Assembly (NCBI RefSeq): GCF_002159975.1
Contig: NZ_NFJR01000002.1
Location: forward strand, 62,001-126,000
Source: Barnesiella sp. An22
GTDB taxonomy: Bacteria > Bacteroidota > Bacteroidia > Bacteroidales > Barnesiellaceae
DNA length: 64,000 bases
Reading direction: 5' to 3'
Shown: in pieces, positions 12,231-54,919 of the stretch
Position numbering within the stretch: position 1 is the stretch's first letter
How the letters are laid out: the number at the start of each line of letters is the position of its first letter
Notes under the pieces: generated by a model
Told to the model about the DNA's origin: nothing
Seen by the model: only the letters and a program-made list of their open reading frames with translations
Database searches by the model: none
Made by a program: the position numbers and the translations under genes

Positions 12231-13157
12231 CTAACCCCCTTTATTGGGGGCTTTCCGCTGGTTTCGGGGATGATATTGCAAGATTTCCTGCCGCAGGAAC
12301 TGCCTGTCGAGGTGGGTATATATCTCGGTGGTGGTGATGCTCTCGTGCCCCAACATCTGTTGAATGGCCCGCAGGTTGGCCCCCCCCTCGAGCAGGTGGG
12401 TGGCAAAGGTATGACGCAGCGTGTGGGGGCTCACCTGCTTGCGAATGCCACACCGCTCGCAGGCCCGTTTCACAATATAGTAGACCATCACCCGGGTAAG
12501 CTTCGCCCCCCGCCGGTTCAAAAACAGAATATCCTCGCTGCCCCGCTTGATGTCGAGCTCCCGCCGGTCTTCCAGATAGAGGTTTATCTCGCGTATCGCG
12601 TTCTGCGAGATGGGAACGAGGCGACGCTTCTCGCCCTTGCCCTCGACAATGATATAACCGTCGGTCAAATAGAGGTCGGAGATACGCAGCCCCACCAGCT
12701 CCGACACCCGCAACCCGCAACCATAGAGGGTCTCGATGATGGCTCGGTTGCGACGGTCCTCGGGTTGCGACAGGTCGAACGACTCGACCATACGGTCTAC
12801 CTCATCGACCGTGAGCACATCGGGCAACTTCACCCCCAGCTTCGGACTCTCGATCAACTCCGAAGGGTCGTTCTCGATGAGCTTCTCCAACTTCAGGAAA
12901 CCGAAAAACGACTTGATTCCCGAGATGATGCGAGCCTGCGACCGGGCTCCGATGCCCAGGTCTTGCAACGTGCATACAAACCGGTGCAGGTCGTCGCCGG
13001 TAACCTGACTCCAATCGAGATTCTCGGTCTGAATAAAATCCACAAGCTTCTCGACATCGCATTGATAGCCCTCTACCGTATTGGTGGAAAGCCCTCGTTC
13101 CAACTTCAAATAGCGCCCAAAACGCTTCAACAAATTATCTGCATCGACTTTTGGCAT
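12231..13157 (-). CDS. xerD: Tyrosine recombinase XerD-type
   Basis: XerD with XerC resolves chromosome dimers at dif. The 308-residue protein has the N-terminal SAM-like core-binding domain (~1-100) and the catalytic domain with all expected residues: Arg150 (GCGLRVSE), Lys174 (EGKGEKRR), His245 and Arg248 (HTLRHT), His271 (LGHESI) and Tyr280 (TTEIYTH). Length and ungapped spacing fit a housekeeping Xer protein rather than a mobile-element integrase. The start is the only ATG near the family N-terminus. Its promoter lies in the first unit of the repeat array immediately upstream. Whether it is XerC or XerD in function cannot be settled without the second paralogue. Confidence 0.9.
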   Translation of the reverse strand: MPKVDADNLLKRFGRYLKLERGLSTNTVEGYQCDVEKLVDFIQTENLDWSQVTGDDLHRFVCTLQDLGIGARSQARIISGIKSFFGFLKLEKLIENDPSELIESPKLGVKLPDVLTVDEVDRMVESFDLSQPEDRRNRAIIETLYGCGLRVSELVGLRISDLYLTDGYIIVEGKGEKRRLVPISQNAIREINLYLEDRRELDIKRGSEDILFLNRRGAKLTRVMVYYIVKRACERCGIRKQVSPHTLRHTFATHLLEGGANLRAIQQMLGHESITTTEIYTHLDRQFLRQEILQYHPRNQRKAPNKGG

Positions 13158-13239
13158 ACTCTTTTTATCCGATATATCATTTTTTTCCGTAATTTTGCCT
13201 TATCTTAGGGAGAATATCCCGGAGCATCGGCTTTCAGGG

Positions 13240-13271
13240 CAAAGATAGTGAAAGGCGAGTGCAGAGACAAA
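13240..13271 (-). promoter_or_regulatory. xerD promoter inside repeat unit 1
   Basis: On the minus strand TTTG (13268-13271), 20 bases, then TATCTTTG (13240-13247): a perfect consensus promoter about 80 bases before the xerD ATG. In the two units further upstream the same positions have lost the consensus (TATCTTTA and TATCTTTT). Confidence 0.8.
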
Positions 13272-13476
13272 CCGAAACCCAGTTTCGTGTTTGGGTTATG
13301 CCGAGCCGACTCCTATCTTCTGTAAAGATAGTGAAAGGCGAGTGCAGAAAAATCAAACTCGTTTGAGATTTTTTGCCGAGCCGCATCCTGTCTTATCTAA
13401 AAGATAGCGAAAGGCGAGTGCAGAGACAACTGAAAACAAAACTTTCAAATTGGACTATGCCGAGCCGTATCCTATC
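13240..13476. repeat. Tandem array of three promoter-bearing palindromic units
   Basis: Three non-identical units lie head to tail at 13240-13320, 13324-13395 and 13399-13476. Each starts with AAGATAGyGAAAGGCGAGTG, then CAGA, a variable middle with its own inverted repeat (AACCCA/TGGGTT in unit 1, AATC-AAAC/GTTT-GATT in unit 2), then TGCCGAGCCG and CCT(A/G)TC. The outer ends GATAG and CTATC can pair. A fourth copy lies at 53587-53670 in the opposite orientation. The array fills most of the 395-bp gap between the divergent xerD and aroQ genes, which holds no other gene. Confidence 0.85.
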
Positions 13477-13552
13477 GCATCGAATCTAAATAGACAAAAA
13501 GGCCGGAGGGACAATCGGCAGAGAGACTCTCCGTACAAAAAAGATTGTTATT

Positions 13553-13978
13553 ATGGATATACTCATTATCAACGGGCCCAACCTCAACTTGTTGGGCAAA
13601 CGGGAAAAGAGCATTTACGGGGAAAAAAGTTTCGACGACTTTCTCGGCGAGTTGCAACAGCGCTATGCCGACCACCGCATCGGCTATTTCCAGTCCAATA
13701 TCGAGGGCGAACTCATCGACAAGATTCAAGAGGCGGGGTTCTCTTGCGACGGCATCGTGCTCAATGCCGGAGCCTACACCCACACCTCCATCGCCTTGAG
13801 CGATGCCATACGTGCCGTACCGACCCCCGTGGTCGAGGTACACATCTCCAATATCCACGCCCGCGAGGAGTACCGCCACAAATCCATGATAGCGGCAGCC
13901 GTTGCCGGCTCGATTATCGGGTTCGGACTCGACTCGTACCGACTTGCCATCGAGGCTTTGATTGAAAAAAAACGATAA
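13553..13978 (+). CDS. aroQ: Type II 3-dehydroquinate dehydratase
   Basis: AroQ dehydrates 3-dehydroquinate to 3-dehydroshikimate, step three of the shikimate pathway. The 141-residue protein, of normal family length, begins with IINGPNLNLLGKRE, includes the catalytic Tyr22 (SIYG), LNAGAYTHTS (~75-84, substrate-binding) and VEVHISNIHAREEYR (~93-107, catalytic His region). The in-frame ATG at 13553 starts exactly at the family N-terminus. It leads a five-gene plus-strand series; the next gene, pyk, starts 13 bases later. Confidence 0.97.
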   Translation: MDILIINGPNLNLLGKREKSIYGEKSFDDFLGELQQRYADHRIGYFQSNIEGELIDKIQEAGFSCDGIVLNAGAYTHTSIALSDAIRAVPTPVVEVHISNIHAREEYRHKSMIAAAVAGSIIGFGLDSYRLAIEALIEKKR

Positions 13979-16145: not shown

Positions 16146-16481
16146 ATGGAAACAACACGACAGAACAAAATAAGCCGCCTGCTGCAGAAGGAGCTGAGCG
16201 ACATTTTTCTGGGCGAAACCCGCAAGACCCACGGCATCATCATCTCGGTGAGCGTGGTACGCGTCAGCCCCGACCTGAGTACGGCCAAAGCCTACCTGAG
16301 CATCTTCCCGCCCGAAAAGAGCGCCGAAATGATTGCCAACATCAACGCCAACGCCAAGACCATACGCTACGAACTGTCACAGCGCGTGCGCTTCCAGTTG
16401 CGAAAGACGCCCGAACTCTCGTTCTTCCTCGACGACTCGCTCGACTACATCGAGAATATCGACTCGCTGTTGAAAAAATAG
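16146..16481 (+). CDS. rbfA: 30S ribosome-binding factor A
   Basis: RbfA binds the 30S subunit and helps mature 16S rRNA, notably in the cold. The 111-residue protein, of usual length, has the KH-like fold with RISRLLQKELSDIF-type N-terminus, VSVVRVSPDLSTAKAYLSIFP (~36-56) and RFQLRKTPELSFFLDDS (~83-99), the family signature. The ATG at 16146 sits after AAAAAGGAGC (GGAG at a good distance). It is followed 9 bases later by the permease gene, an arrangement also suggestive of co-transcription. Confidence 0.95.
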   Translation: METTRQNKISRLLQKELSDIFLGETRKTHGIIISVSVVRVSPDLSTAKAYLSIFPPEKSAEMIANINANAKTIRYELSQRVRFQLRKTPELSFFLDDSLDYIENIDSLLKK

Positions 16482-16490
16482 CGTATACCG

Positions 16491-17732
16491 ATGAGTCGGC
16501 TCTCCCGCAAAATTGCCTGGCGCTACCTTTTCTCCAAGAAGTCGCACAGCGCCATCAATGCCATATCGATCGTATCGGTGTGCGGGGTGGCCATTACCAC
16601 GCTGGCACTCATCTGCACCCTGTCGGTCTACAACGGATTCACGCAGCTGATCGGGTCGCTCTATTCGCAGATAGACCCGCAAATCAAGATTACCCCGCGT
16701 GAGGGGAAAACGCTCGATACCGAGGCTCCCGAGCTGAAACAGATAGCTTCGTGGCCCGAGGTGACCATCGTCTCGCCCGTCATCGAGGAGAGTGCCCTGT
16801 GCCAATACAAGGACCGCCAGCAACCGGTGCTGGTAAAAGGGGTTCCCGACAACTATACCCAACTGTCGCACATCGAGGAGCTTATCACCAGCGGCACCTT
16901 CATGCTCAACGACGGGCGAGTCGACTATGTATCGCTGGGCATAGGCATTGCCGCCCAACTGGGTATCGCCACCAACACCCCCTACCCCGTAGAGCTCTAT
17001 GCTCCCAACCGGCTGGGACGGGTCAATCTGGCCAACCCGGCACAATCGTTCAACAGCAGGCGTTTCTTCGTGGCCGGCGTCTTCTGCTCCAACCAGGCCA
17101 TCTACGACGACCAACTGGTGATTCTGCCCCTGGCCACCGCCCGCGAGATGTTCAGCTACACCACCGAGGCAACCGCCATCGAGCTGCGCCTCGCTCCCGA
17201 CTACACCGAGCATGCCGTGGCCCAGAAGCTGAAAGAGACTTTGGGCGACTCGTACCGCGTGGCTACCCACATCGAGCAGAACGACTGGTACAAGTGGGTA
17301 CAGATTGAGAAGTGGATTACCTTCCTCATCCTCTCGTTTATCCTGATGATTGCCACCTTCAATGTGATAGGCGCCCTCTCGATGCTCATCATCGACAAGA
17401 AACGCGACATCGACACCCTGCAAAAACTGGGAGCCGACGACCGACTCATCTCGCGCATATTCCTGGCCGAGGGGTGGCTCATCTCGGCCATCGGGGCCGG
17501 TTCGGGCCTCATTCTGGGGGTGATACTCTGCTACCTGCAACAGGAGTACGGATTGCTGAAGCTGGGCAGCACCGAGGGTATGTTCATCACCGACGCCTAC
17601 CCCGTACGGCTCGAACTGTTCGACACGCTGGCCGTCACCGCCATCGTCCTCATCCTGGGCTTCGTTACCGCCTGGTATCCTGCCAAGTTTCTGCGCAAGC
17701 GCCTGCTCGCCGAGAAATCAAATAGAGAGTAA
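16491..17732 (+). CDS. LolC/LolE-like ABC transporter permease
   Basis: The 413-residue inner-membrane protein has the LolCE/MacB layout: TM1 at ~20-45 (NAISIVSVCGVAITTLALIC), a ~230-residue extracytoplasmic domain, then three TMs at ~275-300, ~320-345 and ~375-400 (FtsX domain). The N-terminal IAWRYLFSKKSHSAINAISI pattern is typical of LolC/E. In lipoprotein release LolCE works with ATPase LolD; no ATPase gene is adjacent here. It is the last gene of the aroQ series, followed by a convergent HIT gene. Confidence 0.8.
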   Translation: MSRLSRKIAWRYLFSKKSHSAINAISIVSVCGVAITTLALICTLSVYNGFTQLIGSLYSQIDPQIKITPREGKTLDTEAPELKQIASWPEVTIVSPVIEESALCQYKDRQQPVLVKGVPDNYTQLSHIEELITSGTFMLNDGRVDYVSLGIGIAAQLGIATNTPYPVELYAPNRLGRVNLANPAQSFNSRRFFVAGVFCSNQAIYDDQLVILPLATAREMFSYTTEATAIELRLAPDYTEHAVAQKLKETLGDSYRVATHIEQNDWYKWVQIEKWITFLILSFILMIATFNVIGALSMLIIDKKRDIDTLQKLGADDRLISRIFLAEGWLISAIGAGSGLILGVILCYLQQEYGLLKLGSTEGMFITDAYPVRLELFDTLAVTAIVLILGFVTAWYPAKFLRKRLLAEKSNRE

Positions 17733-53444: not shown

Positions 53445-53586
53445 CACCGAAAGCGAGAGATTCATTCACTCTGTTTTGCTAAAATAAAACAAATAACATT
53501 TAAAATACATTTACACACTCTGCTCTGCCATCCCTTCTCCCACACGAGGGAAGAGAGAAATAAGCAAAAGATTCCTTATCTTTGTA

Positions 53587-53670
53587 GAAGATAGGATGCG
53601 ACTCGACATAGCCAAACTTGAAAAACAAGTTTTCCCGTTTGTCTTTGCTCTCGCCTTTCACTATCTTTGC
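53587..53670 (-). repeat. Fourth copy of the promoter-bearing repeat unit
   Basis: The minus strand of this stretch aligns with the units near xerD: AAAGATAGTGAAAGGCGAG at its start, AAAGACAAAC, a perfect inner hairpin AAACTTG/CAAGTTT, then TCGAGTCGCATCCTATCTTC at its end. Just outside the end the sequence ACAAAGATAAGG repeats the start of a further unit before diverging, as at the joints of the xerD array. It lies in the 407-bp gap between the divergent glycosidase and ychF genes. Confidence 0.85.
53638..53669 (+). promoter_or_regulatory. ychF promoter inside the repeat unit
   Basis: TTTG (53638-53641), 20 bases, TATCTTTG (53662-53669): a perfect consensus promoter reading toward ychF. It predicts a leader of about 140 bases. 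A second TATCTTTG (53577-53584) lies just outside the unit without an upstream box. Confidence 0.75.
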
Positions 53671-53815: not shown

Positions 53816-54919
53816 ATGAGTTTACAATGTGGTATAGTCGGGCTGCCCAACGTGGGCAAATCGACTCTTTTCAACTGTTTGTCCAATGCCAAAGCGCAAT
53901 CGGCAAACTTTCCGTTCTGCACCATCGAGCCCAATGTGGGAGTGATTACCGTTCCTGACGAGCGGTTGAACAAACTGGCCGAACTGGTTCATCCCCAGCG
54001 CATCGTCCCCACGACGGTCGAGATTGTCGACATCGCCGGCCTGGTGAAAGGGGCCAGTAAAGGTGAGGGTCTGGGTAACAAGTTCCTCGCCAACATTCGC
54101 GAGACCGATGCCATTCTGCACGTGCTCCGCTGCTTCGACGACGACAACATCACACACGTCGACGGCTCGGTAAACCCCGTAAGAGACAAGGAAATTATCG
54201 ACTTTGAGCTGCAACTCAAGGACCTGGAGACCATCGAATCGCGCATTGCCAAGGTACAGAAACAGGCACAGACCGGCGGAGACAAGGCGGCCAAAATCGC
54301 CTACGAAGTGCTGAGCCGCTACAAAGAGGCTCTCGAGCAGGGCAAACCGGCCCGCACGGTCACCTTCGAGACCAAAGACGAGCAGAAGATTGCCCACGAC
54401 CTCTTCCTGCTCACCAACAAGCCGGTAATGTACATCTGCAACGTCGACGACGCCAGCGCCGTATCGGGCAACAAATATGTCGATATGGTACGCGAAGCCG
54501 TCAAGGACGAGCATGCCCAGATACTGATTGTGGCCGCCAAGACCGAATCGGAGATTGCCGAGTTCGAAACCTACGAAGAGCGGCAGATGTTCCTCAACGA
54601 AATCGGCCTCAAGGAGTCGGGCGTATCGCGCCTCATCCGCGCCGCCTACAGCCTGCTCAACCTCGAGACCTACTTCACCGCCGGACCGCAAGAGGTGCGT
54701 GCCTGGACCTACCTGAAGGGGAGCAAGGCTCCGCAGTGTGCCGGCATCATCCACACCGACTTCGAGAAGGGCTTTATCCGCGCCGAAGTCATCAAGTATG
54801 ACGACTACATCACCCTCGGGTCGGAAAACGCCTGCAAAGAGGCTGGAAAGATGTATATCGAAGGCAAGGATTATGTGGTGCAGGACGGCGACATCATGCA
54901 CTTCCGCTTCAACGTGTAA
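53816..54919 (+). CDS. ychF: Redox-regulated ATPase YchF
   Basis: YchF (OLA1 homologue) is an Obg-family P-loop protein that hydrolyses ATP and binds ribosomes. The 367-residue protein starts MSLQCGIVGLPNVGKST, with Walker A GLPNVGKST (8-16), the G3 block DIAGLVKGAS (~70-79), and a C-terminal TGS domain (~283-366). The NVDDAS segment stands where the GTP-specific NKxD would be, which fits ATP preference. The open frame reaches back to 53618 through the repeat unit, but the family start is ATG 53816. Confidence 0.96.
   Translation: MSLQCGIVGLPNVGKSTLFNCLSNAKAQSANFPFCTIEPNVGVITVPDERLNKLAELVHPQRIVPTTVEIVDIAGLVKGASKGEGLGNKFLANIRETDAILHVLRCFDDDNITHVDGSVNPVRDKEIIDFELQLKDLETIESRIAKVQKQAQTGGDKAAKIAYEVLSRYKEALEQGKPARTVTFETKDEQKIAHDLFLLTNKPVMYICNVDDASAVSGNKYVDMVREAVKDEHAQILIVAAKTESEIAEFETYEERQMFLNEIGLKESGVSRLIRAAYSLLNLETYFTAGPQEVRAWTYLKGSKAPQCAGIIHTDFEKGFIRAEVIKYDDYITLGSENACKEAGKMYIEGKDYVVQDGDIMHFRFNV

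Follow-up and report, generated by a model that had tools for sequence, protein, structure and literature searches.

The window analysed here is a 64,000-nt stretch of the genome of Barnesiella sp. An22 (the host genome), in which an array of repeat units lies between xerD (12231..13157, minus strand) and the divergent aroQ beyond it (13553..13978, plus strand), both identified above cut-off by NCBIfam models (TIGR02225 XerD and TIGR01088, respectively). An earlier note on this DNA had described three head-to-tail units upstream of xerD, and they are present at 13240-13478 on the plus strand: unit 1 (13240..13319, long type, 80 nt, covariance-model score 89.8 bits), the outermost, which faces xerD; unit 2 (13323..13394, short type, 72 nt, 70.3 bits); and unit 3 (13399..13478, long type, 80 nt, 85.1 bits), whose distal end has decayed (CCTATCGC). 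All three have the same orientation and are separated by 3 and 4 nt. Exact copies of the arm AAAGGCGAGTGCA number three in the window, all of them within this array; allowing up to two mismatches gives six matches, whereas 100 shuffles average 1.58 and never reach six. The plus strand of each unit folds better than its own shuffles (z of -4.4, -4.6, and -3.1), and folding of the minus strand is weaker (z of -3.7, -1.5, and -1.5). A TTTTGCCnTATCTTAGG-like stretch on the plus strand near the xerD start (about 13180-13215) is similar in most of the nine genomes compared, with or without units.

The left edge of the array coincides with a -7 box, TATCTTTG on the minus strand (13240..13247; CAAAGATA on the plus strand), the proposed insertion target within the putative xerD promoter. 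A -33-like TTTG contributed by unit 1 (13268..13271, minus strand) can be read from the sequence 20 nt off this box. The accessible part of PMC7366714 gives TAnnTTTG, with TTTG near -33, as the -7 consensus of the sigma-ABfr promoter, and unit 1 has both elements; the TTTG-N20-TATCTTTG arrangement that had been called a perfect promoter was confirmed by reading, in the sense of a consensus match only. Facing outward, this putative promoter would serve xerD. On the minus strand of units 2 and 3 the box reads TATCTTTA and TATCTTTT, both without the last G, in agreement with the decay reported previously.

A second family member, a single unit (53588..53669, minus strand, 86.2 bits), lies upstream of ychF (53816..54919, plus strand; NCBIfam TIGR00092 above cut-off, start taken from the homology match), which the outward putative promoter of this copy would serve. 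Its gene-proximal -7 box TATCTTTG (53662..53669, plus strand) is preceded by TTTG at 53638-53641, with a 20-nt spacer. A second box TATCTTTG (53577..53584, plus strand) stands on the distal side of the copy, and the flank beyond it resembles the flank of the single box in relatives that lack the unit.

A repeat family of Barnesiella and other Bacteroidales

A covariance model built from an alignment of 24 host-genome units gave at least 133 matches in the host genome among the best 150 of 1513 candidates, the only ones scored, so that more copies are possible. After removal of two opposite-strand duplicates, 131 units remained in 71 arrays: 37 single, 19 double, 8 triple, 3 of four, and 4 of five units. 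These units span 52-89 nt, mostly 65-90, and are short, non-coding, and present in many copies, as expected of miniature inverted-repeat elements (MITEs), whose size range is 50-1000 bp. All nine Barnesiella genomes carry the family, with at least 43-112 matches each (at most 114 candidates scored per genome), as do 6 of 32 other genomes of the order (1-86 matches); in a wider sample of Bacteroidales, matches were patchy and occurred in 23 of 247 genomes. The search of the genome and its relatives that the earlier note had proposed therefore established a large family. Restriction to two loci without variation between strains, which had been named there as grounds for abandoning mobility, does not hold, with many loci occupied and variation found at the level of species.

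Named genomes among the matches listed in an exact-pattern scan include Barnesiella, Paraprevotella, Leyella, Xylanibacter, Mediterranea, and Prevotella, as well as Bacteroides, Candidatus Tidjanibacter, Muribaculaceae, and others. With unit 1 of the window as query, a single plasmid record was found, from Phocaeicola massiliensis (OY726013.1, 46 kb), in which the unit at 16435-16515 has CAAAGATA on both sides; this plasmid is a possible vehicle between genera. A phage collection queried with another unit returned three records marked UNVERIFIED, all faecal scaffolds that are guessed to be bacterial. One of them (MT836408.1, 9162-9235) holds one unit, flanked on either side by CAAATATA and with the CTATATT arm that matches this box. 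Viral contigs contained no exact match to one unit pattern.

Arrays are regular, with a single orientation in 32 of the 34 multi-unit arrays, spacers of 3 nt (41) or 7 nt (10) in most of 60 cases, and a start-to-start period of 72-90 nt in 57 of 60 neighbouring pairs. For 42 of the 94 units in multi-unit arrays, the nearest relative lies in the same array (1.0 expected by permutation, and at most 6), indicating that local duplication accounts for a large part of array growth. The other 52 units, including all three at xerD, are nearest to a unit outside their own array. Given these mixed relationships, arrays seemingly grow both by duplication and by the arrival of other subfamilies. Unit 2, for instance, has its nearest relative in the array at C1:49138, upstream of what is taken to be uvrA (the names of genes beside arrays other than xerD, aroQ, and ychF, such as uvrA, mdh, and obg, are presumptive). 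Simple local duplication was accordingly rejected as the origin of the xerD array, and with it the plain promoter duplication that had been suggested for this locus. At C12:2285-2680 and C34:110330-110723 in the host genome, short and long units alternate in near-identical repeats, a pattern that duplication of a two-unit block would give. It may be speculated that arrays of two to five units tune expression stepwise.

The frequent kinship of neighbours would also be expected if the units were not mobile at all, being instead regulatory sequences upstream of promoters (e.g., operators) whose copies arose by slippage and were kept alike by gene conversion, the box forming their fixed edge. However, an identical unit core occurs at C1:20471 and C53:183454, on different contigs and before two genes; the xerD units are closest to those of other arrays; and the genes adjoining the arrays look functionally unrelated, judging from N-termini and mostly presumptive names. 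This explanation is taken up again below with the orthologous sites.

Folded structure and the -7 box at array edges

The consensus unit folds into a stem of AAGATAG/CTATCTT followed by GA/TC, GGC/GCC, an internal loop with the potential for tandem G.A pairs, and then GCA/TGC, which encloses a variable hairpin at the centre. Across 23 distinct rows, 95.9% of the cells are paired and double changes occur at 5 of 16 pairs (1.3 in shuffles), and none of 500 shuffles reached any of the five structure measures, statistics that relatedness of the sequences may inflate and for which the structure was derived from the same sequences. A variable centre with its own inverted repeat, described earlier at xerD, proved to be general: in the 86 distinct units that score at least 60 bits, the median z for folding of the inner part is -2.07, and z falls below -1 in 73 of them (plain shuffles). 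In 597 ungapped pairs of equal-length long units, mean identity is 83% in the arms and 68% in the inner part. The plus strand is more stable than the minus strand in 69 of the 86 units as RNA and in 73 as DNA. Since conserved G.A mismatches are atypical for a plain duplex palindrome and the plus strand folds better, one folded strand would seem to be what is recognised; if single-strand folding is relevant, as we infer, the form recognised is probably the plus strand, folded so as to include the G.A mismatches.

Co-varying stems and stronger folding of the plus strand as RNA are also what an RNA element (leader, attenuator, or small RNA) acting post-transcriptionally would display. Such a role is highly improbable: a transcript starting past the outermost box would presumably exclude the outermost unit, and the gene on the far side lies on the plus strand in 40 and on the minus strand in 30 of 70 arrays (crude ORF calls), so that no consistent downstream gene exists there. 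A known Rfam structured RNA was rejected: the window gave no match at the gathering threshold, and 13100-13600 gave none at E up to 5.

At their outer edge, 58 of the 71 host-genome arrays start with CAAAnnTA, which is the -7 box TAnnTTTG of Bacteroidetes in reverse complement, and no common flank was seen before it in these arrays. A second exact box follows 2-9 nt past 24 of the 71 arrays, compared with 0.7% of 2485 background windows, and is located 3 or 7 nt beyond the stem arm in 21 of the 24. In 17 of these 24 arrays, the next 12 nt score no more than 7 against the unit, although by eye at least one of the 17 (C5:51274) still resembles a decayed unit. The remaining 47 arrays either continue into partial units or stop with no box, and the exact second box is assumed to have been lost from them by erosion. 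Of 85 arrays in loci from named species, 78 start with the box (142 of 151 matches, the nine weakest omitted, in 80 of at least 113 stretches; arrays at locus ends skipped); because these loci were fetched by a pattern containing AAAGATAG, only the leading C is an unbiased test.

Box conservation was compared between outermost and inner units for 112 of the 131 units (at least 45 bits and in the main orientation of the array, with the next unit counted as outermost where the outermost one is weak). Outermost units have kept the last G of the box (C on the plus strand) in 60 of 63 cases and inner units in 24 of 49 (p 1.7e-8), while AAAnnTA, which lies mostly within the stem, is kept equally (60 of 63 and 47 of 49). 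On the simplest reading, the outermost box would work as a promoter and the inner boxes would be free to lose their last G. This promoter-like constraint on the outermost box is likewise compatible with immobile regulatory sequences. The -33 TTTG (CAAA 19-21 nt inside the box) does not differ, being found in 45 of 63 outermost and 30 of 49 inner units (p 0.31). On the box side, the adjacent gene is on the expected strand in 48 of 70 arrays and on the other strand in 22, according to longest-ORF guesses that chose an antisense frame at xerD; these strand counts were accordingly set aside as a test.

The two arms change together. Among 62 first units of at least 45 bits, the far arm has A in all nine units with T at the variable box position and in 0 of the 53 others; the remaining pairs are G with C (42), G with T (4), A with T (3), and A with C (4), and the pair is broken in 8 of the 112 units. 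Most TATA units have their closest inner sequences among GATA units, suggesting that both arms have changed together more than once. This covariation is consistent with either a stem under selection or pairing of the arm with its target, which the data do not separate. The arm variants CTATCTT, CTATATT, and CTATTTT mostly match the box variants in which they sit (CAAAGATA, CAAATATA, and CAAAAATA, respectively). It is possible, if rather doubtful, that the repeat is a selfish hairpin guided to the core promoter box by base pairing with its own 3′ arm; were it so, the match of arm and box variants would mean that the element itself encodes its choice of target, which could change as the element drifts.

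Filled and empty orthologous sites

Units are found upstream of xerD in five of nine genomes (three; two; one truncated; one plus a partial; and one) and are missing from four, as assessed by eye. In three of the four unit-less sites, CAAAGATA or CAAAGGTA occupies the place where the array would start, and in the fourth no box could be identified by eye. The xerD proteins of two relatives, G002 and G003, are 79% and 86% identical to that of the host. Upstream of the gene adjoining C1:20471, the compared stretches of the same two genomes (L284 and L285) are identical, for which recent transfer or assembly contamination may be offered as a reading.

At 15 other loci in eight relatives, 116 orthologous upstream regions comprise 40 filled and 76 empty sites. 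A region with a 27-nt match of 20 bits (L293) was counted as empty, weak opposite-strand matches in L299, L345, and L352 were ignored, and L295 was kept as filled with its unit in the opposite orientation, perhaps from the promoter of another gene. Three of the empty sites (L256, L282, and L350) seem by eye to hold decayed copies between two boxes. A box lies within 160 nt of the start codon in 69 of the 76 empty sites; the control counts are 7 of 76 for sequence farther upstream on that strand and 10 of 76 for the opposite strand. Since a box is expected in any promoter, matches of the flanks are the stronger evidence, and they alone tie the box to the insertion point.

With flanks scored best against best, and with the 15 host-genome loci included among 55 filled loci, the distal flank best matches empty sites of its own locus, over those of the 14 other loci, in 17 of the 55, where about 3.7 are expected. 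It does not point to its own locus in the other 38, including uvrA in G002 and ychF in G003, and the margin is 1-5 points only in 11 of the 17. Margins are wide at uvrA (28, 35, and 35 vs. at most 18, 17, and 13 in the host genome, i.e., G000, and in G003 and G006), mdh (43 vs. 16, host genome), and ychF (18 and 18 vs. 11 and 13, in the host genome, whose copy is the one in the window, and in G004). At these clear sites the box is present once when the site is empty and on both sides when it is filled. One of the two flanking boxes may be a duplicated target or a part of the element. The left arm of the unit, which pairs with the right (AAGATAG/CTATCTT), coincides with the box that is also present at empty sites. 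The proximal box is not always that of the host: at obg, five empty sites carry CAAAAATA and the filled sites CAAAGATA. At C12:135204, likewise, all seven empty sites carry CAAAAATA and the host genome CAAAGATA. The single box in empty sites, rather than a dated tree, suggests that units have been gained and not lost.

In the clear cases, units sit at a -7 box that relatives have without any unit and offer a new -33 side, so the promoter would be preserved and not brought; the element thus seems to preserve a promoter rather than to supply one to a promoterless gene. The earlier description of the units as promoter-bearing is borne out in terms of sequence, and by retention of the last G mainly in the outermost unit, but the proposal that they deliver promoters does not stand as worded. 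The suggestion of a mobile miniature repeat, in turn, gains support from presence and absence at orthologous promoters, the identical core on two contigs, and the spread over 71 arrays. Filled and empty orthologous sites, with matching distal flanks at uvrA, mdh, and ychF, are difficult to reconcile with immobile regulatory sequences, and that alternative is considered unlikely.

Proposed mobility and comparison with known systems

Mobility targeted at the box is the preferred explanation: the family is probably a non-autonomous mobile repeat of Bacteroidales whose insertion at a promoter -7 box restores the promoter and regenerates a target for further insertion. A unit would insert in one orientation at the -7 box (TAnnTTTG) of an existing promoter, by means of an enzyme presumably acting in trans. 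The gene-proximal box would stay as the -7 element after insertion, and since most long units offer TTTG 19-21 bp further out, a consensus promoter is proposed to be re-formed at the edge. A second box would be left on the far side; with boxes on both sides, further copies could insert at the same place, giving rise to head-to-tail arrays, to which local duplication would add still more copies. Confidence in any given insertion chemistry is much lower than in the mobile, box-targeted reading. The best guess, a tentative one, is that a folded single strand inserts site-specifically, its 3′ arm (CTATnTT) pairing with the box.

No autonomous relative sharing the unit ends was seen by eye at eight lone unit ends among those listed in the host genome. 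Of these ends, C3:74646 is a copy without most of its left half, C45:232276 and C34:170216 look like right ends that have decayed and have a box-like sequence after them, C11:10853 is a left end alone, and the four other places look unrelated. A high-copy palindromic hairpin with one better-folding strand might also be a REP/BIME-type repeat moved by a RAYT, an IS200/IS605-like Y1 transposase, possibly one that acted in the past and is now lost. The corresponding domain (PF01797) is absent from the host genome and was found in one of nine genomes of the genus and 2 of 12 other carriers, i.e., in 3 of 21 carriers searched, and membership in this class was rejected on that account. The units, moreover, have boxes on both sides and are at least twice as long as REPs (20-40 bp, according to the accessible part of PMC3733652), and this origin, too, is very improbable.

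In the literature searched, neither the arm sequences nor the repeat family was found in print, most subscription papers being outside the reach of the search. Nor did that search turn up a repeat that inserts into the core promoter box and restores the promoter. If true, core-promoter targeting with re-forming would be an unusual way for a genetic parasite to stay harmless in a compact genome; by keeping the box intact, the repeat may be able to spread and do the host no harm. In some gut Bacteroidales, dozens of ordinary genes would then be having their promoters remodelled from one species to the next.

Several known systems share single features with this repeat. The attB core of CTnDOT-type tyrosine recombinases, which is taken to be GTANNTTTGC, resembles TAnnTTTG; that string was not found in the literature searched for this core. 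Integron attC sites are folded single strands in tandem arrays. For the repeat, no cargo gene or dedicated integrase was found. A hairpin finding its target by pairing would be a mobile element that reads promoters and is moved in trans; its mode of action would resemble that of integron attC sites and of guide-paired IS200/IS605 ends, though it would belong to neither. High-copy palindromes and probable single-strand recognition are shared with REP/BIME repeats. In contrast to these, the units are longer, have the box on both sides, and co-occur with a Y1 transposase in few carriers; their consensus (alignment A1) starts with CAAAGATAG, ends with TCTT, and, at about 80 nt, lies outside the REP definition of 20-40 bp with a GTAG or CGTC tag.

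Small promoter-carrying repeats are already known, on the evidence of the accessible parts of PMC10969869 and PMC4596501. As far as the latter text goes, the BrickBuilt and 464/PgRS MITEs of Porphyromonas gingivalis are intergenic, contain tandem repeats, and have promoter activity in E. coli, with repeats of 23 or 41 nt in a longer element that has IS-like terminal repeats, and with 19 BrickBuilt elements. The present repeat has the order (Bacteroidales), the intergenic location, and tandem repetition in common with them, but its period is 72-90 nt and its unit ends differ from the terminal repeats quoted; a promoter-box target is not described for them in that part of PMC4596501. Correia elements of Neisseria, in the portion of PMC10969869 available, are small multi-copy MITEs of 204 bp that carry promoters and mostly lie just upstream of genes. 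The present repeat is likewise small, multi-copy, mostly located upstream of genes, and, by its sequence, putatively promoter-carrying. It differs from Correia elements in that its proposed insertion point is the -7 box itself, in its length of about 80 nt, in its head-to-tail arrays, and in belonging to another phylum with another type of promoter.
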